A stretch of DNA of 64,000 bases from positions 1 through 64,000 of the IMG/VR virus record IMGVR_UViG_3300046004_000818. One strand, 5' to 3'. A program made the position numbers and the translations under genes. Below, in pieces: positions 22,796 through 57,206 of the stretch (position 1 is the first letter of the stretch; every line of letters starts with the position of its first letter). Below the pieces are notes generated by a model. It was not told the DNA's origin. It ran no database searches and was given only the letters and a program-made list of their open reading frames with translations. The stretch is from a virus.

Positions 22796-22843
22796 ATTTT
22801 CTGATGTAGAATCTTGGTTCCACTAACCAACTAGGATAAACCT

Positions 22844-40018: not shown

Positions 40019-40502
40019 ATCTGCTTACGCAGTAGTCATAGCCATGCTAATGGCTACTAGCTGTAGCCTGCACTGGGATAACCAAGGGTTGGTGGTAGAT
40101 ATAGCTAAAGAGAAAGTAGTGGTGGCAGACTTGAAAGCTGCTATCAAAACTGCTGACGCTAAGGCTGCTGCAGAGTCTGCCACCCTGACCAAGAAAGTAC
40201 TAGAGGCCCAAAATGCTGCAAAGAAACGTGAAGCTATCCTGCTTGCTGATGCTAAGTCTGCCAACACTGCTCTTGATGGGTTGCGCTTGTCCATCGCCAC
40301 CGCCAAGTCCTCCTACAATATCGCTAACGTACCCACCTATGCCAGTACTGAGCTTACAGATACCAGCCTCAAGCTACTCGACCAATGCTCAGAAAGATAC
40401 ACAGTCTTGGCAGCAACAACTGATATCTACGCCAGCTATATCCAAGAAGTAACACAGGCGTGGCCTGTGTTACCTATGGTTAAAGCTGTATCACCTGAGT
40501 AG
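39993..40502 (+). CDS. Rz: Inner-membrane spanin subunit (Rz-like)
   Basis: This 169-residue protein has a short N-terminal hydrophobic segment (SAYAVVIAMLMATSCSLHW) and a long periplasmic Ala/Lys coiled coil (DLKAAIKTADAKAAAESATL onward), typical of i-spanins that act with an outer-membrane lipoprotein to fuse the membranes in the last step of lysis. The o-spanin is encoded inside it in the +1 frame. Its 3' end overlaps the convergent SbcC-like gene by 23 bp. A cysteine in MATSC could be read as a lipobox, but the coiled coil favours an i-spanin. Confidence 0.8.
   Translation: MNPLALIPKSAYAVVIAMLMATSCSLHWDNQGLVVDIAKEKVVVADLKAAIKTADAKAAAESATLTKKVLEAQNAAKKREAILLADAKSANTALDGLRLSIATAKSSYNIANVPTYASTELTDTSLKLLDQCSERYTVLAATTDIYASYIQEVTQAWPVLPMVKAVSPE
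40213..40452 (+). CDS. Rz1: Outer-membrane spanin lipoprotein (Rz1-like), nested in Rz
   Basis: This 79-residue frame lies wholly within the Rz gene in the +1 frame. It has a basic start (MLQRNVKLS), a hydrophobic stretch (CLLMLSLPTLLL) and lipobox LMGC with the lipid-accepting cysteine, followed at once by a Pro-rich mature part (ACPSPPPSPPTISLTYPP). Pro-rich small lipoproteins nested in Rz are the defining Rz1 type. Signal peptidase II cleavage and outer-membrane anchoring are predicted, which also shows that the host has an outer membrane. Confidence 0.88.
   Translation: MLQRNVKLSCLLMLSLPTLLLMGCACPSPPPSPPTISLTYPPMPVLSLQIPASSYSTNAQKDTQSWQQQLISTPAISKK
40449..40473. terminator. Strong hairpin at the convergent junction
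   Basis: GTAACACAGGC-GTG-GCCTGTGTTAC is a perfect 11-bp stem with a three-base loop, inside the last codons of Rz and just past the stop of the leftward SbcC-like gene. No U-tract follows on either strand. It may still slow polymerase or protect transcript ends where the two major operons meet. Confidence 0.5.
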
Positions 40503-42528
40503 CAAACGCATCTGCTAGGTTGCTGTGGGTTACAACAACCACTTGATCGTAACCTGTAGCAGCTAGCAACCCCAACATAGCAGTCTCCCGTTCTTCATCC
40601 ATACCTGCTGCTGGTTCATCCAGCAGCAGGTAGTCAATGGATGGCAGGAACGTCTTGCTTAAAGCCATGCGTATTGCAAGGCCCAAGGCATCTAGGGTCG
40701 ATCCAGACAATCCACCTACAGGTTTGCCGCCTACAGCAAAAGAGTTGGAAGACCTTGTAACGATGCTAGGCTCTCCCCTGATCTGACTAAAGTAGGTAGA
40801 GACAGATGCAAGCACGATAGCCCAGAGTCTACCTGCTACTATTGGCCTAGCTTCACGTAGCTTCTTGATAAGAGCATTGTTTTTCTGCATCTCTTTTAGG
40901 GATTCTTCCAACTTCGCCTTAGACTCCATACTTGCTAGATAGTACCCAAGCTCAGTGTCATGCTTCTGTTGAGCCTGTTCAAGAGCATTGGCCGCATCCT
41001 TGTAGGCACCTAGGGCGGTGTTCACCTCTTGCTGCTTGAGCTTAATGGCTAACCGGGTAGCTTCCTTCTGCGCTAGCAAGCCTTGTGCCAAAATCTTTGC
41101 AGGAGTGTCAACCACCAGACCTTTGGTCTCAGTTAACAGCTTTCCCTGCCTATCTGCCAGTTCAGCATACACACCCTTGGCCTTGTCATACTCACGCTGT
41201 AGCCGTTCACCCTCACGAATCTCAGCCACATAATCAGGCCAAACCTCAACCTGCTTGGGGACTTCGCCCACCCAAGTCAACATCCTTGGGTACCTCTGGT
41301 CACCACGTTTCGTGAACTTCTCTGTAGCCCTATGCACAGCTTCTAATTGTGTATTTAGTTTTTGTAAATTTGTAAGAAATACTCTACGAGCTTTCTTTAC
41401 CTCTAGGTCAACTGTGATTGAAGCTACCTGATCTTCAGCCTCCTTGATCTTGATAGCATTGGCGGCGTTCTTTGTGACCACCTCTGGTACATCGCTCAGG
41501 TCTTTACCGCACAGACCACAAGCTGTCTCAGTGATGATCAAAGCCTTTGCAGTAGCAGCAGCTAGCTTGTAATGGACTATGGCATCAGTCATAAAGCCGA
41601 TAGCAGCCTCGTTAGCTTTCCACTCCTTGTCAAAGTCATCTACTTGAGTAGTCACTGAGGTTGACTCCCAGAAGACCTTAAAGGCTTTCTCTTTGATAGT
41701 ATGCTCCCGCATTGCTTCCAAGCCCCGCTTGGCACCCTCTATATCTACGGTAGGTGGTGTAGGTTCCACCAATCTGTCCATAAGCTGATCCATCTCTATG
41801 GTGATCTGCTCCCAACGCTGCTCGGCTTTCACCACATCGGCAATGATAGCTCTCTGTGCTTGTTCATCAATGGTGTCGTTTTCTTCCAGTGTTTCCAACT
41901 CTGTCTTAGCTAGCTGAAGTGCTGCTTTGGTGAAAGCAACTGTTGGCTCTAGGTCTTCTGTATCCAGCACAGGTTTCTTCAGATCATACAGCGGTGTAAG
42001 TGTATCAGTGATTTGCTTGGTGTTGCCGCTAGGTAGTTGATCCTGAATCTTTGATATGAGCATATCAAGCAGGTCGATGTTAGCCAGCTTCTCAATCAGC
42101 GGTACAGCCTCACCAGTTTCCAAGGCTCCACGTAGTCCACCTTGAGAGGCCACCATCAGCTTTGTAGCTGCGTCTGCATTGACACCGAACAGACGTTCAA
42201 CATACTTGGTTACTTCTGCTTGTCCATTAGCAGTCTCCGTGCCGTTGGTGATCACTGCACCTGACTTGGAACGCACTATCGTATAGGAGACTTGCTCGAA
42301 TGTGAAAGTCAGTTCTACCTTGAGAGAACCCTCTGGCTTCTCGTAGGTAACGGTTTCTGCCAAGGTCATAGGTAACGCTCTAGCACCGAACATGGCGTAC
42401 ACAACTGCATGATACAAAGTGCTCTTTCCGGCCTCGTTCGCACCCTTAAGCGCAACTAACCCATCTTGAAATTGCACAGTCAGGTCTTCGTGCTTCTTAA
42501 AGTTCTTGAGTGTGAGTTTAGTAATCAT
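40480..42528 (-). CDS. SbcC/Rad50-like recombination ATPase
   Basis: This 682-residue SMC-type ATPase has Walker A GANEAGKST (29-37), a long coiled coil interrupted near residue 337 by the zinc-hook CGLC, an ABC signature-like VGGLSGSTLDALGLA (~609), Walker B YLLLDEPAAGMD (~632) and a switch His in VVVVTHS. With the nuclease at 42721 it forms an SbcCD/gp46-gp47 complex that processes DNA ends for recombination-dependent replication. A small gene separates the two. It is the last gene of the leftward operon. Confidence 0.93.
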   Translation of the reverse strand: MITKLTLKNFKKHEDLTVQFQDGLVALKGANEAGKSTLYHAVVYAMFGARALPMTLAETVTYEKPEGSLKVELTFTFEQVSYTIVRSKSGAVITNGTETANGQAEVTKYVERLFGVNADAATKLMVASQGGLRGALETGEAVPLIEKLANIDLLDMLISKIQDQLPSGNTKQITDTLTPLYDLKKPVLDTEDLEPTVAFTKAALQLAKTELETLEENDTIDEQAQRAIIADVVKAEQRWEQITIEMDQLMDRLVEPTPPTVDIEGAKRGLEAMREHTIKEKAFKVFWESTSVTTQVDDFDKEWKANEAAIGFMTDAIVHYKLAAATAKALIITETACGLCGKDLSDVPEVVTKNAANAIKIKEAEDQVASITVDLEVKKARRVFLTNLQKLNTQLEAVHRATEKFTKRGDQRYPRMLTWVGEVPKQVEVWPDYVAEIREGERLQREYDKAKGVYAELADRQGKLLTETKGLVVDTPAKILAQGLLAQKEATRLAIKLKQQEVNTALGAYKDAANALEQAQQKHDTELGYYLASMESKAKLEESLKEMQKNNALIKKLREARPIVAGRLWAIVLASVSTYFSQIRGEPSIVTRSSNSFAVGGKPVGGLSGSTLDALGLAIRMALSKTFLPSIDYLLLDEPAAGMDEERETAMLGLLAATGYDQVVVVTHSNLADAFATQVIQL

Positions 42529-42716
42529 AGTTTAGCAATCACAAGTTGAAGAGCTTGGGCTGCTGTAAAGCCCTCGTTGACAAAAGCAGTGTACTGCATA
42601 TAGGCATGTTTAGCTGCGAATACCATACGCTGTCTGTTGACAGGTGTACCTAGCTCTGCCATAGCCTCCTTAAGTAGCTGTGCCATCTTAACAGAATCTT
42701 GTTCACTCATTGCCAT
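42525..42716 (-). CDS. Hypothetical small helical protein between sbcD- and sbcC-like genes
   Basis: This 63-residue helical protein begins MAMSEQDSVKMAQLLKEAMA and ends ALQLVIAKL. The frame is open further upstream, but the added residues would read through the nuclease gene, so ATG 42716 is used. It overlaps the SbcC-like start (ATGA). No family is known; position suggests a partner of the nuclease complex. Confidence 0.55.
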   Translation of the reverse strand: MAMSEQDSVKMAQLLKEAMAELGTPVNRQRMVFAAKHAYMQYTAFVNEGFTAAQALQLVIAKL

Positions 42717-42720
42717 AGTA

Positions 42721-43731
42721 TTACTCCAAGTTGTGCAAAATTGCAATCTCAGCGGGGTCCAGAACCTCGCCCAAAGCGGCCCAAACATCAAATGCGCGTA
42801 CTGATTCAAGTGAGTCGCTGAAGCCTTCCAGACCCTCGTTTGACGCGATCTGGACAGCGTTTGTCACGACCAAAGCGGGGCTGATCGAACGGAACTTAGC
42901 GACTGCGCTAACCACCTGTGCAGCTTGCTCTGCCGTAGCATTGCCAACCATACGAACAAACTTATGGTTGGTTACTACTGGGTCTGTCCATAGCTGCTCA
43001 GTGTACTCACCGCTTTTGTCCATCACTATGTAGTGACCAACCACACCTTCTTCGTCAATACTGGTTCCATATTTATAGGAACAACCCTGCCAATCAGATA
43101 CCGATGTGGCAATCTGATTACCCGGAAGCCGTATCTTGCCTACATGCTTGTGCTGATGCTCATGCCCACAGATGATATGCTTAGCCTTGCTAGCTTCTAC
43201 CTGTTCCTTGGTTATGTTCAAGGACTGATCCGATTGTGCAGCAAACTTGTTGTCATAGTTGACATGCAAGAATAGGTAGTCACATTCAGGCACACCTTCC
43301 AAAGCTGCATCAAAGGCTTCCTGATTTGGAAGGTGAGGGATCACATAGCCGTAAGGCGTATCAGTAGGTTCCTTGATAAGGACTACACGACCAGCATAGC
43401 TGCTACGCAAATAGTGTAACATAGTTGCTACTAGGTCAAGGCTTGAGGCCACTCCGCTAGTCTTGCTAAGGTCATGGTTACCTGCCACTAGGTACATATT
43501 GCCTGTGGTTCTGTCCAACCAGCTAAGCAGTAGCCTGATAGTCTCTATCGCATCAGAGATATTGACCTCAAACTTATCGAACAGATCACCCAAGATCATC
43601 AGGTCACCTTGATGCGGCAGCAATGCACCGAACTGTGTAAGCACATAGTTCTTCAGAATCCCCTTGGTCAGTACAGTGGTACCTGCACTACGTTCCACAC
43701 CAATGTGGGTATCATTAAGAATGGTTAACAT
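42721..43731 (-). CDS. SbcD/Mre11-like metallophosphoesterase nuclease
   Basis: This 336-residue protein carries the calcineurin-type metal motifs in order: NDTHIG (6-11), GDLFDKF (~48-54), GNHDLS (~84-89), FLHVNYDN (~154) and CGHEHQHK (~188-195). It is the nuclease subunit for the SbcC-like ATPase downstream. A GGAGG site precedes the ATG. It overlaps the upstream small gene by 17 bp. Confidence 0.92.
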   Translation of the reverse strand: MLTILNDTHIGVERSAGTTVLTKGILKNYVLTQFGALLPHQGDLMILGDLFDKFEVNISDAIETIRLLLSWLDRTTGNMYLVAGNHDLSKTSGVASSLDLVATMLHYLRSSYAGRVVLIKEPTDTPYGYVIPHLPNQEAFDAALEGVPECDYLFLHVNYDNKFAAQSDQSLNITKEQVEASKAKHIICGHEHQHKHVGKIRLPGNQIATSVSDWQGCSYKYGTSIDEEGVVGHYIVMDKSGEYTEQLWTDPVVTNHKFVRMVGNATAEQAAQVVSAVAKFRSISPALVVTNAVQIASNEGLEGFSDSLESVRAFDVWAALGEVLDPAEIAILHNLE

Positions 43732-45094: not shown

Positions 45095-45150
45095 TTGATT
45101 GCCGTTGATTGTCATTGATTGCAGCTATAGAACTATAGAACTATAGCTGC
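45095..45150 (-). promoter_or_regulatory. Phased TTGATTG repeats and palindrome upstream of the P-loop gene
   Basis: TTGATTG occurs three times at exact 10-bp spacing (45095, 45105, 45115). It is followed by GCAGCTATAG-N10-CTATAGCTGC (45121-45150), which also holds CTATAG three times with an 8-bp period. Upstream on the leftward strand TATAAT (45156-45161) overlaps the end of thyX. The helical phasing and perfect palindrome suggest a bound regulator or a leader hairpin for the downstream operon. Confidence 0.55.
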
Positions 45151-45157
45151 AACTTCA

Positions 45158-52763: not shown

Positions 52764-55625
52764 TTACTTTAGTTGAAACGCATAAACACCATTCCGTTGC
52801 ATAGCGTCGTAATCTAACAACAACGACTCCTGTCTCACCTGTGTTGTCCCCTGCTCACCCATTATGTATAGAGGACTATCCTTCATAGCCTGAACGAAAC
52901 TAGCATCACCCATAAACAAGGGCAACACATTGATGTTACGGCAATGCAGCCTGTACTTGTTGTACGCAAGCCTACCAATGATGTTCAGCACAGCTTTACC
53001 GCCCATGTCCTTAACCTCAAAGTCAACATGGTTGTTGAGCCTACATGGGTGATCTGCTGCGAACCGTGACATATCAGACAACATTTCAAAGACCTTGATA
53101 AACTCTGGTACAGAATTCTTAACGATCTTATCCATTTCGGTATAGATATGTGGTATCAGTCCCAAGACCTTCTCTGCCAAACTATCTTCAGCCTTGGGTA
53201 GAAATAGAGCTACCACTTCAGCAAACTTAATTAGACCAAACTCAGTCACAGCATAGTTGAATATAGAACGCTCATTCATGTTCTGTTTAATGAACAAGGT
53301 GTTAGCGTCACAAGTTTCTAAGCTATCCTCTGGTTGGATACTAAGCGCCTTAGTTACCCTGTCCAGTATAGGTTGGAACTCAGCATTGAAACTCTCAATG
53401 GTTGTCTGGCTCACAATGCTAGCTGCTAAGTGCTGACCAATGATAGCAAGGCACTTTACATTGGCTTGAAACTTATCCCATGATGGTTTCGTCCGTCCTG
53501 CCAGTCGCCCATTCTGGCGTTTAAGGGTCACCAAAACAGTTCGGTGCAGAATGGCACCCTCTGTCTCCATCGCTTCGGCTAGGAAGGCTGTAGGCCCGGT
53601 CAGATCGACTTGGCTCAAGCCCTTGAAAGACGGTGTGGCGCGGTTGCCGCCGCCGCGAGAAACTGCATGACCGTTATAGCTTGAACGGAAGTAGCTACGC
53701 ATATCTTCTAACTTTTGCTGGCTCATTGTATGAGGCTTGTACTCATCAATGATAACAGGAATAGAAGCACTACCTGACATGATAGAGGTAATAGCAAAGT
53801 TACTGGAACTAGCAGTTGTTACTACAGGTTTTTGGTTCAGATAGAACATATGCAACATGGACTCTAGCATACGACTCTTACCTGTACCTGCTGGCCCTGC
53901 CACATGAAGCAGTGGAAACTGGTTATGTTCCAGTCGGAACAGTTGGGTGTAGAAAGAAGCGGTAATCCACCCAATTATCTTAGCCAGTGATGGCGCTTCT
54001 TGACAACCCAACAAGCCTTCAAGCATAGACTGCATACGTTCTACGTTACCGGGGTCCAATGCTACAAACTTAGGCCATGACGGTGCATTAGCTAAGTCGG
54101 TCTTGAGTAGTGGCGCTGGTCCTGGGTCTGGAGCCAACTCTACCCGTAGCCCTAGATCATACAGATGCTTGGGAATACGGACTTCATTAGCATCTGCCCA
54201 AACTAAAAAAGGCTTACGAGCTTCCACTATATTAGACTGCGGCATACATAGTACATCAAGACCCTCTGAGGTTGTGGCATAGCTAGTAGCTGTACCTAGT
54301 TTAATCTCTTTAAGCATATGTGTGTAGATATAACGTGAGTGTATATCGCTCCCTGTGAATGAAACACCTCGGTCATTGATCGCCTTATGTAGTGCGCTAT
54401 TGCTAGCGAATGAGTCACGTTCCAGCTTGATAGCAGATGACCGATTGCCTGTAACAATAGTGGCTTTGATAACTGCAATAGCCTCTGTCTCAGGGTCCAA
54501 CAACGCTGACACGTTCTTGAAACACGCATCCATTATGTGACGGTCACCCTGCTCAGTAGCAGCATAGTAGTTATTGTTCTTGATAAAAATACCACTGGTA
54601 TCTTCTGTAGTGAACTCTTCTTGGTCATCATCTTCGCTGAACTCATTGCGAGTCTCAAGCATAGACTGGATAGGTCCAATAGCATAGTCGTACCCTACAC
54701 CATCCTCAAGATAGTTGTACATCCTGCGTAGCTCATGCTCACGCTTGCCAGCAGAGTTGTACCTATAGCCATCTCCTGTGTGGTTCTCAATAAGACCTTG
54801 ACATTGTGCTATTAGTTCGTCTTCTGATAACTTCGCTTCTAGCGCATAGATACCAAGCTGAATGGCTATCTTGTTGAAACCTATACCTTCTTTGACATTC
54901 TCCCCCTTCATCAATTGCTTGATGATTGGTAGATGCCTACGCAAGGTAGCAGCATCTACAGGCTTAGTTCTGATCTTCTTCAAGGCCCGTAGCTTCTGTT
55001 CAATACCTGCATAGAGGATAGCGAACTGAGGCCTGAAGGTCGGAGTAGCCGTTATCAACGGTCGTGGAGTCTTGCACAACTCTGCGTAGCTCTCAGGTGT
55101 CAGTGCAGCTAGCTCTGCTGGTGTGATCTGAACCTTATAGTTGGAATTGTCTCTGACATTGTAATGTGTGCGAAACATGCGCCCCTTACGAGCACTGTAT
55201 ACGGCAAAGTCCAAGGTGGGTACTGCTAATTTAAATGCCAGTTCCTTGTAGATAGCTGGTAACTTATTAACTGCTGCTACCTTCTCCATGAATACTACTG
55301 GTGGCACCAGTATATGCAAGCCCTTCTTGCCAGACAGGAAGATTTCCATATCTGAGTCTTGCAGATCATACTTCTTCAACTTAACTACAAGTGACTTCGC
55401 GCCTTCTATAGACTCTTCTAGCTCTGTGGAGTCTAGGTCGAAGTATAACGGCCCCAAATACTTGGCCCCCTCTACCATTGGCTTTGGTGAGTCCTTAGCC
55501 AACAAGGTGTCGCAAGCTAGTACAGTTATGAACGTAGGCTTTAACTTGTCAAAGTCAATAGTATCGTGGCATGTTACCCAATCTTCTGTGCCACCAACTA
55601 GCTGGTAGCTTCTATAGAGAGTCAT
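52764..55625 (-). CDS. Primase-helicase: AEP-type primase fused to a P-loop helicase
   Basis: This 953-residue protein. The N-terminal ~270 residues look like an archaeo-eukaryotic primase: YFDLDSTE (~62) for the metal site, IFLSGKKGLHILVPPVVF (~100) and LDFAVYSARKGRMFRTHYN (~153). The C-terminal part is a superfamily 3/AAA-like helicase with Walker A GPAGTGKS (~577) and Walker B IPVIIDEYK. It would synthesise primers and open the fork for the family A polymerase. It starts after a 180-bp structured non-coding element. Confidence 0.85.
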   Translation of the reverse strand: MTLYRSYQLVGGTEDWVTCHDTIDFDKLKPTFITVLACDTLLAKDSPKPMVEGAKYLGPLYFDLDSTELEESIEGAKSLVVKLKKYDLQDSDMEIFLSGKKGLHILVPPVVFMEKVAAVNKLPAIYKELAFKLAVPTLDFAVYSARKGRMFRTHYNVRDNSNYKVQITPAELAALTPESYAELCKTPRPLITATPTFRPQFAILYAGIEQKLRALKKIRTKPVDAATLRRHLPIIKQLMKGENVKEGIGFNKIAIQLGIYALEAKLSEDELIAQCQGLIENHTGDGYRYNSAGKREHELRRMYNYLEDGVGYDYAIGPIQSMLETRNEFSEDDDQEEFTTEDTSGIFIKNNNYYAATEQGDRHIMDACFKNVSALLDPETEAIAVIKATIVTGNRSSAIKLERDSFASNSALHKAINDRGVSFTGSDIHSRYIYTHMLKEIKLGTATSYATTSEGLDVLCMPQSNIVEARKPFLVWADANEVRIPKHLYDLGLRVELAPDPGPAPLLKTDLANAPSWPKFVALDPGNVERMQSMLEGLLGCQEAPSLAKIIGWITASFYTQLFRLEHNQFPLLHVAGPAGTGKSRMLESMLHMFYLNQKPVVTTASSSNFAITSIMSGSASIPVIIDEYKPHTMSQQKLEDMRSYFRSSYNGHAVSRGGGNRATPSFKGLSQVDLTGPTAFLAEAMETEGAILHRTVLVTLKRQNGRLAGRTKPSWDKFQANVKCLAIIGQHLAASIVSQTTIESFNAEFQPILDRVTKALSIQPEDSLETCDANTLFIKQNMNERSIFNYAVTEFGLIKFAEVVALFLPKAEDSLAEKVLGLIPHIYTEMDKIVKNSVPEFIKVFEMLSDMSRFAADHPCRLNNHVDFEVKDMGGKAVLNIIGRLAYNKYRLHCRNINVLPLFMGDASFVQAMKDSPLYIMGEQGTTQVRQESLLLDYDAMQRNGVYAFQLK

Positions 55626-55652
55626 CTGCTTCTTTCTTATTAGCGTAGCTTA

Positions 55653-55787
55653 CTGTTAGAAGAACCCCATTTTCGGTGAAAGTTACCGGACAACCCAAGA
55701 ACCTGACGGTTTGAGATTACGGCTCGAAAATGGGGTTCATCTAACAGCAAGCAAACGCTTGCGGGGTTGTCGGAATGCGCCTTTCAC
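55653..55787. ncRNA. Interleaved inverted repeats, candidate structured RNA or origin element
   Basis: Arm A (55653-55675) and A' (55725-55747) match over 23 bp with one mismatch. Arm B (55676-55696) starts where A ends and pairs with B' (55764-55787) through GTGAAAG/CTTTCAC and ACAACCC/GGGTTGT plus CCG/CGG. Between A' and B' lies a hairpin GCAAGC-AAAC-GCTTGC (55747-55762). The order A-B-A'-B' is that of an H-type pseudoknot. The element fills the only long gap in the replication operon and contains no reading frame of note. Strand and function are open. Confidence 0.7.
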
Positions 55788-55805
55788 AGCGGGTGTAATC
55801 TTACA

Positions 55806-57206
55806 TCAGTTTCGACCATAAAAAACGTCCCGCAAAGATGTTTTTGTCTGCTCCACGGTGTCGGTCAGGTCGATGTTAGCTGCTAGGCGCTTGATGATAC
55901 TGTCTTGGATAGTGCCTTGAGCATCTGCAAACCTCATGGTAGGAGGTACTGTCTGGCCTACCCTATCTATTCGTCCACAGCTTTGACTCATATACAAAGG
56001 AGATGTAGGTATCTCCAAGTGTAAAGATTCTGAGCAAACAAACTGAGGGTTTAGACCTGCGCCAGCACTCTGGTACTGAAACACGCCTATACGCACACTT
56101 GGATCGTTCATGAACTTGTCTACGTTCTTGGCACTATCTACTTCACTGTATGCTCCTACAGCACTATAGCCTAACTCCTTCAGATACTTTAGTACCGAAC
56201 GGCTGGTCATAACGTATATAGTCCAAATGATTAGTTTACTCTTGGTAGGGTCCAAGCATTCTGTCTGCTCAATGGTCATGTCAATCAAGTCGTAGCAGGC
56301 ACTGCGTTTTGTAGGGTCGCCAGCGAAGTGGCCCCAGTTGCATATGATCTGCTGAGCCGCATGGTAGAGCCGAGTAGCAGTGGTTGCGTCTATCTTACTA
56401 CCATCATCCAGCAATAACAACTGTTCTTCCAACAACTTCTCATACAGCTTCATGTGCTCTGGGTCAAGCTCATAACTGGTGTCTGGGTATATAGGTGCCA
56501 ACGAGTAACCATGCACCTCCTTTTTCGTCCTATGCACAGACTTGATTGCAAAGTTCTCAGCAAGCATTGGGAGGTTCTGGTAAGCCTTGATAGAGCCAAA
56601 GAAGTCTCGCTCAGCTACGTGCATTTGCTCAAAGTGAGCATAGCTTCTGTATATTTCAGGACTACGCAACTTGATGAATGTATAGCAGTCTGTGGGCTTA
56701 CTGGTAGGTGTACCTGTTAGCATCTGCAGTCGGCGGTTCTTGCTGAACGTACCTACACATGTATATAGTTTTGACTTAACGTTCTTAATTGACTGTGCTT
56801 CGTCTACTATAAGTTCCACATGAAGACCTTGAAGCTCTGCAAATACACGCTCGAAATCTCTGCGGAAGATATCAGATGACATTAGTACCCAACGCTTATC
56901 AGCAAGAGTCATCTTCTTGCGAATAGGTGGGGTACCTTTGTACATCAGCACACGCTCACTGACACGCTCTAACCACCGTTTCCACCCTAGCAAGAGAATG
57001 GGAGGCATGATTACAACAGTGACCTGTGGCTCACTGATTAAAGATACGGCTGTGGATATGACAGTTTTGCCACACCCAACCTCATAGCGATTCAAACTCT
57101 TGTTCCATTGCAGGAAGGTCTCTACGTCTTGTACCTGCAAATCCTTAAGCGCGAATCCAGCCTTCTCTTCAAATCTGTAGGCTTCGTTAAAAGCTTTGTA
57201 TGTCAT
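55806..57206 (-). CDS. SNF2-type DNA helicase/translocase
   Basis: This 466-residue superfamily 2 helicase has motif I VGCGKTVISTAV (~43-54), MPPILLLGWKRWL (Ia), LIVDEAQSIKN (DEAQ box, ~130), MLTGTPTSKP (III) and the C-terminal QSCGRIDRVGQ (VI). The family remodels protein-DNA complexes or drives branch migration. It lies between ligase and primase genes in the replication operon. The start overlaps its upstream neighbour (ATGA). Confidence 0.9.
   Translation of the reverse strand: MTYKAFNEAYRFEEKAGFALKDLQVQDVETFLQWNKSLNRYEVGCGKTVISTAVSLISEPQVTVVIMPPILLLGWKRWLERVSERVLMYKGTPPIRKKMTLADKRWVLMSSDIFRRDFERVFAELQGLHVELIVDEAQSIKNVKSKLYTCVGTFSKNRRLQMLTGTPTSKPTDCYTFIKLRSPEIYRSYAHFEQMHVAERDFFGSIKAYQNLPMLAENFAIKSVHRTKKEVHGYSLAPIYPDTSYELDPEHMKLYEKLLEEQLLLLDDGSKIDATTATRLYHAAQQIICNWGHFAGDPTKRSACYDLIDMTIEQTECLDPTKSKLIIWTIYVMTSRSVLKYLKELGYSAVGAYSEVDSAKNVDKFMNDPSVRIGVFQYQSAGAGLNPQFVCSESLHLEIPTSPLYMSQSCGRIDRVGQTVPPTMRFADAQGTIQDSIIKRLAANIDLTDTVEQTKTSLRDVFYGRN

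Follow-up and report, generated by a model that had tools for sequence, protein, structure and literature searches.

A long hairpin between the helicase and primase genes of an uncultivated virus, a candidate RNA-level element whose crossing helix is within chance

The locus considered here raises the question of why a virus carries a long inverted repeat in the gap between its helicase and primase genes, and whether this element is one hairpin or a pair of crossing helices. The DNA analyzed, referred to as the window, comprises the first 64 kb of an uncultivated virus record with a full length of 82,971 bp. The initial annotation had placed the repeats in a gap of 180 bp between both genes, and this gap was confirmed at 55626-55805. 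As helicase and primase are both minus-strand genes, their RNA has the reverse-complement sequence of the strand presented, a point absent from that annotation, and all statements on RNA refer to the minus strand unless otherwise given. The locus is organized as follows:

57206-55806, minus strand: SNF2-type helicase, by family assignment
55626..55805, minus strand: non-coding gap of 180 bp from the helicase stop to the primase start; the same place in relatives is taken by a gene for a protein of ~160 aa
55625-52764, minus strand: primase, by family assignment
55725..55752, minus strand: arm A', the 5' arm of the long hairpin on the sense strand, from the inverted-repeat search
55676..55724, minus strand: 49-nt loop of the long hairpin, holding segment B and a weak small hairpin, from repeat search and folding
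55648..55675, minus strand: arm A, the 3' arm of the long hairpin on the sense strand, from the inverted-repeat search

The long helix formed by A and A' is real and far above chance. The repeat search revealed two arms of 28 nt each which are 93% complementary (26/28 Watson-Crick), enclose a 49-nt spacer and measure 105 bp from end to end. A 23-bp match with one mismatch had been described before; it corresponds to 55653-55675 and 55725-55747, with 22 of 23 positions matched, and extends to the full 28 nt. As sense RNA, 27 of the 28 positions are paired, comprising 26 Watson-Crick pairs and one G-U, and a single U-U mismatch is left. One of the two mismatches is hence a G-U on the sense strand and an A-C on the opposite strand, which lends slight support to a role at the RNA level. 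In the predicted fold, AGCG/CGCT pairs lengthen the helix to ~31 bp. With ungapped scoring (+1/-2), helix A reached 22, whereas the top inverted repeats of 60 dinucleotide-shuffled 64-kb windows scored 11-14. It is the top-scoring inverted repeat found across the window and the loci of the relatives, where most of the other repeats scoring at least 17 feature loops of 0-8 nt. Folding of the whole gap resulted in a z of about -5 to -6 (60 shuffles), a slightly larger stretch gave -4.4 and -4.7 (200 shuffles), and the z of the sense-strand MFE was about -4.7 to -6.3. A few other gaps in the same genome also fold strongly, and those inspected look like ordinary short hairpins or terminators, direct repeats and, in one case, a tRNA-like sequence.

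Further repeats and structured sequences were observed in this genome. A tRNA-like sequence (GTGGGACTATAGCTC...TAGTCCCACCA), in which CCA is encoded and the anticodon is apparently CAT, is located on the minus strand at 73306-73442 of the full record (G000, in L019), and TATCTAAAGCACAGGCCTAGAGCCTGTCCTTTGTG is present twice, as direct copies in one gap, at 80174-80352 (also in L019). Within the window, a near-perfect 34-bp palindrome (TTGCAGCTATAGAACTA/TAGAACTATAGCTGCAA) is situated between two minus-strand genes at 45119-45152. The strand block that carries the long inverted repeat also encodes, at 40480-43731, SbcC-like and SbcD-like proteins, labeled in PHROG as subunits of a palindrome-specific endonuclease.

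Three smaller features overlap with or cross the long helix:

55764..55787, minus strand: segment B', proposed crossing partner of B, pairing within chance
55747..55762, minus strand: small 6-bp hairpin GCAAGC/GCTTGC, overlapping the base of helix A
55676..55696, minus strand: segment B, proposed crossing partner of B', pairing within chance

The six-bp hairpin had been annotated correctly. The outermost 6 nt of A' (55747-55752) belong to both structures, so that the hairpin and the base of helix A compete for them, which the initial annotation did not mention. The same annotation had emphasized a second long helix, interleaved with the first and resulting in an H-type pseudoknot or two alternative folds. 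Its segments do exist, and B begins on the base after A, but their pairing does not stand out from shuffled sequences. Exact blocks are formed by 55676-55682 with 55781-55787 (7 bp) and by 55689-55696 with 55764-55771 (8 bp), and the middle part is irregular. The best duplex energy between loop and flank (-23.0/-23.5 kcal/mol) was reached by 38-53% of the shuffled pairs on the plus strand and by 14-22% on the minus strand. For that one flank, the local complementarity score of 13 was reached by 1.4% (mononucleotide) to 2.7% (dinucleotide) of the shuffles, a share which rises to 10% when either 80-nt flank may pair, and the longest exact match of 8 was matched in 4%. According to these loop and flank shuffles, comparable pairing is common given two stretches of ~50 nt of the same composition. 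The crossing helix is no better than chance, its sequence complementarity being marginal. A third crossing match of 7 bp (AGATTAC at 55795-55801 with GTAATCT at 55714-55720) corresponds, by our own estimate, to about the chance expectation for a stretch of such length.

As only one of two helices exceeds chance, a pseudoknot or two-state switch is unsupported. Such a structure, either a true H-type pseudoknot or a co-transcriptional switch in which B forms first and is displaced by A, would serve as translational operator or riboswitch for the primase, similar to the T4 gene 32 leader, and we regard it as unlikely. It is favored by the existence of both segments (8+7 bp), by the predicted folding of growing sense transcripts, in which B is present at lengths of about 120-140 nt and A is formed once ~150 nt are reached, and by a place before a replication gene which recalls the T4 gene 32 operator (PMC535899). 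Nevertheless, the A-fold is predicted to be far more stable than the best fold constrained to contain B (-66.0 vs. -47.3 kcal/mol), and with a linker of 0 nt the coexistence of full A (28 bp) and full B would be sterically strained. Moreover, most of the ribosome site is predicted not to be sequestered. Like the gene 32 leader pseudoknot of T4 and RB69, the element would be an RNA structure preceding the ribosome site of a gene for replication; unlike this far smaller pseudoknot of about 28 nt (PMC535899), it features a crossing helix within chance and a simple long hairpin as dominant predicted fold. A kinetic switch via a B-containing folding intermediate, as might be read from the modeled transcripts, is likewise unsupported. 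It is also quite unlikely that a lineage-specific structured leader RNA has arisen at the place of a lost operon gene and controls primase synthesis by sequential folding, with the crossing pairs first and helix A last.

No Rfam family matched the region, neither at the gathering threshold nor at E<=10. This leaves membership in a known RNA family or riboswitch class unsupported, argues against the operator or switch described above and was counted for an ordinary processing hairpin. An HDV-like ribozyme topology was rejected, as the helices are far too long and an Rfam match is missing. From the original proposal of a structured or regulatory RNA, the strong inverted repeat in a replication-operon gap and the structured RNA were a fair description, whereas the headline of a pseudoknot or switch was not retained. 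The hairpin is unusually long, but the interleaving which made it look special fails the chance test.

The origin of the element was approached by comparison with relatives, i.e., about 25 IMG/VR loci beyond the window which were obtained from viral-contig scans with polymerase and helicase alignments. All complete helicase-primase intervals of these relatives except that of L047, whose gap of ~390 bp contains short frames only, hold an open frame of about 157-176 aa between both genes. Most of these ~160-aa frames were recognized by family similarity, that of L043 by position and alignment only and that of L046 weakly. The encoded protein (7487-7972 in L026 and equivalents in other loci) represents a conserved family. 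One tested member had no Pfam or PHROG match, and its AlphaFold2 model (pLDDT 90.7) matched no fold in PDB or BFVD at E<=0.001. In the genome of the window, the ~160-aa gene was not found elsewhere, and no remnant was detected in the 180-bp gap. A gap frame (SQTVRFLGC...NGVLLTV) which resembled the C-termini of the relatives was rejected as such a remnant, since profile HMMs built from 5 and later from 19 family members gave a best E of about 0.5-0.9. Judged from these sequences, the phage lost the ~160-aa gene and the hairpin now occupies its place. A different kind of gene alteration was noted in one of the relatives (L013 13665-14540), where the ThyX (thymidylate synthase) gene is split at residue 88 by ~880 bp, possibly a recent intron; it is uninterrupted in the close relatives L012, L014, and L015.

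The hairpin itself is absent from all relatives compared, for which short-word BLAST gave chance-level matches only, and it was not found in the cultivated phage records searched. Viral contigs, and prokaryotic genomes at one per species, were also scanned with patterns which required exact arms, and chance matches only were obtained. DNA patterns for the B/A junction and the A arm yielded nothing in viral contigs and bacterial genomes, or chance matches that lacked an inverted partner, one of which fell within a coding frame. The element is known from one genome only and is thus a lineage-specific singleton of a known kind. Its absence in close relatives with the same gene order had been named beforehand as an argument against the proposal. 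The absence was observed, but with an additional gene at the place of the hairpin the relatives differ in gene order and, therefore, this argument applies only in part. An integron attC site was considered as well, because core-like GTTAGAT/TCTAAC motifs are present at the locus. Compared to the usual attC layout, their orientation appears inverted and L boxes seem to be missing, and this candidate was rejected.

A possible, albeit doubtful, explanation is a neutral inverted repeat without function, i.e., the scar of a recombination or template switch by which the ~160-aa gene was lost, or a MITE-like insertion of 105 bp with 28-bp terminal inverted repeats. It is consistent with the restriction of the hairpin to a single genome and with the disappearance of the gene without a remnant, which indicates that a replacement event happened at this gap. 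Prokaryotic MITEs are smaller than 500 bp and feature TIRs of about 4-30 bp (PMC10969869), a range which includes the 28-nt arms and the total length of 105 bp. Like Correia-type and other prokaryotic MITEs, the element lies close to a gene and combines a length of ~105 bp with inverted repeats of 28 bp; Correia transcripts are cut at the TIRs, and MITE hairpins in transcripts of Neisseria are cut by RNase III at the inverted repeats (PMC10969869). Unlike them, it is present in single copy, shows no visible flanking duplication and has no relative in the searched genomes. More precisely, a second copy is absent in its own genome, and exact-arm patterns detected no related copy in the viral contigs and bacterial genomes searched, so that neither multiple copies nor a related transposon mark it as a MITE. 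A flanking duplication was not seen by eye at either arm boundary, although such duplications fade with age (PMC10969869).

Whether the hairpin belongs to a leader or to a spacer depends on the start of transcription. Two features are relevant for this:

55798..55808, minus strand: TGATGTAAGAT, weak counterpart of the promoter-like TAGAAT of relatives, putative in function
55627..55641, minus strand: A-rich ribosome-binding region of the primase, the 15 nt directly 5' of its ATG (55641-55627), predicted to be unpaired with a probability of 0.85-1.0

TAGAAT occurs at most 32 nt past the helicase stop in 8 of 17 relatives, with an expectation of 0.0018 per relative, these relatives being not independent of each other though their flanking DNA has diverged. 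A near twin of TGATGTAAGAT, TGATGTAGAAT at 22802, comes after a terminator-like hairpin. If transcription starts at TGATGTAAGAT, the element would be the leader of the primase, otherwise an intercistronic spacer. A consensus promoter scan of the gap detected none, and no terminator-like site was found in 55400-56000, where the short GC-rich stem and T run of an intrinsic terminator are lacking. The predicted accessibility of the start region is 0.70 with the element and 0.69 without it; accordingly, no claim is made that the hairpin exposes the ribosome site. A gene for a small RNA or a decoy RNA between helicase and primase would fit a compact, strongly structured intergenic element whose 5' end may carry a promoter-like site. 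Nevertheless, with no terminator after the element, no consensus promoter and no homologue found in the phage, viral and bacterial sequences searched, this explanation is very unlikely.

A function at the DNA level, as origin, primosome assembly site or site of primase loading, is highly improbable. The adjoining helicase and primase genes would suit such a role, and the hairpin could form in single-stranded DNA. Still, the relatives lack the element, and the replication origin proposed by the initial annotation is weakened by the DnaA-box-like sites, which cluster at 179-251 instead and include two perfect TTATCCACA, as well as by the cumulative GC skew, which has its peak close to 40 kb and does not turn at 55.7 kb. 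Positions 1-260 and 648-775 of the window comprise, in this order, an ACACCAG tandem array at the contig end, several DnaA-box-like sites of the GTGGATAAC/TTATCCACA type (two perfect) and a pair of direct repeats, both containing a CTATACACA...TGTGTATAG hairpin. By its sequence appearance, this region looks like a replication origin.

The most likely role of the hairpin, which we propose tentatively, is that of an RNA-level processing, stabilizing or insulating element of the RNase III type. Upon transcription of the minus strand, A' and A would pair into ~31 bp of double-stranded RNA in the leader or spacer of the primase, ending ~20 nt 5' of the primase start, and the A-rich ribosome-binding region would stay unpaired. 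Host RNase III may cut this hairpin and part the helicase mRNA from the primase mRNA, so that the latter would begin at a defined 5' end. RNase III recognition is poorly predictable from sequence. With regard to length, its minimum target is 22 nt, and transcripts of T7, T3 and lambda are among its targets (PMC5371410). The 27 paired positions out of 28, and the ~31 bp of the predicted fold, exceed this minimum (at least about 22 nt of double strand), which supports the reading as a processing hairpin. Like the RNase III processing hairpins of T7 early RNA, lambda and the pnp and rnc leaders, the element would place an extended RNA duplex in an untranslated leader or spacer, and this duplex is longer than the minimum of PMC5371410; unlike them, it has one site, here of putative cleavage, and a 49-nt loop. 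The strength of helix A and of the sense-strand fold, the mostly unpaired ribosome region in the prediction, the intergenic place in an operon and the TAGAAT at the head of the gap in relatives were additionally counted for the RNA-level role, whereas the occurrence in a single genome, the missing consensus promoter and the practically unchanged predicted accessibility of the start were counted against it.

For the analysis of comparable loci, it follows that crossing inverted repeats spotted by eye need a chance test of loop against flank, which the second helix failed here. If the hairpin is functional, this phage would have swapped a conserved operon gene for a hairpin that precedes the primase gene and codes for no protein. 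The locus would then offer a simple test of whether spacer hairpins insulate the messages of replication genes.
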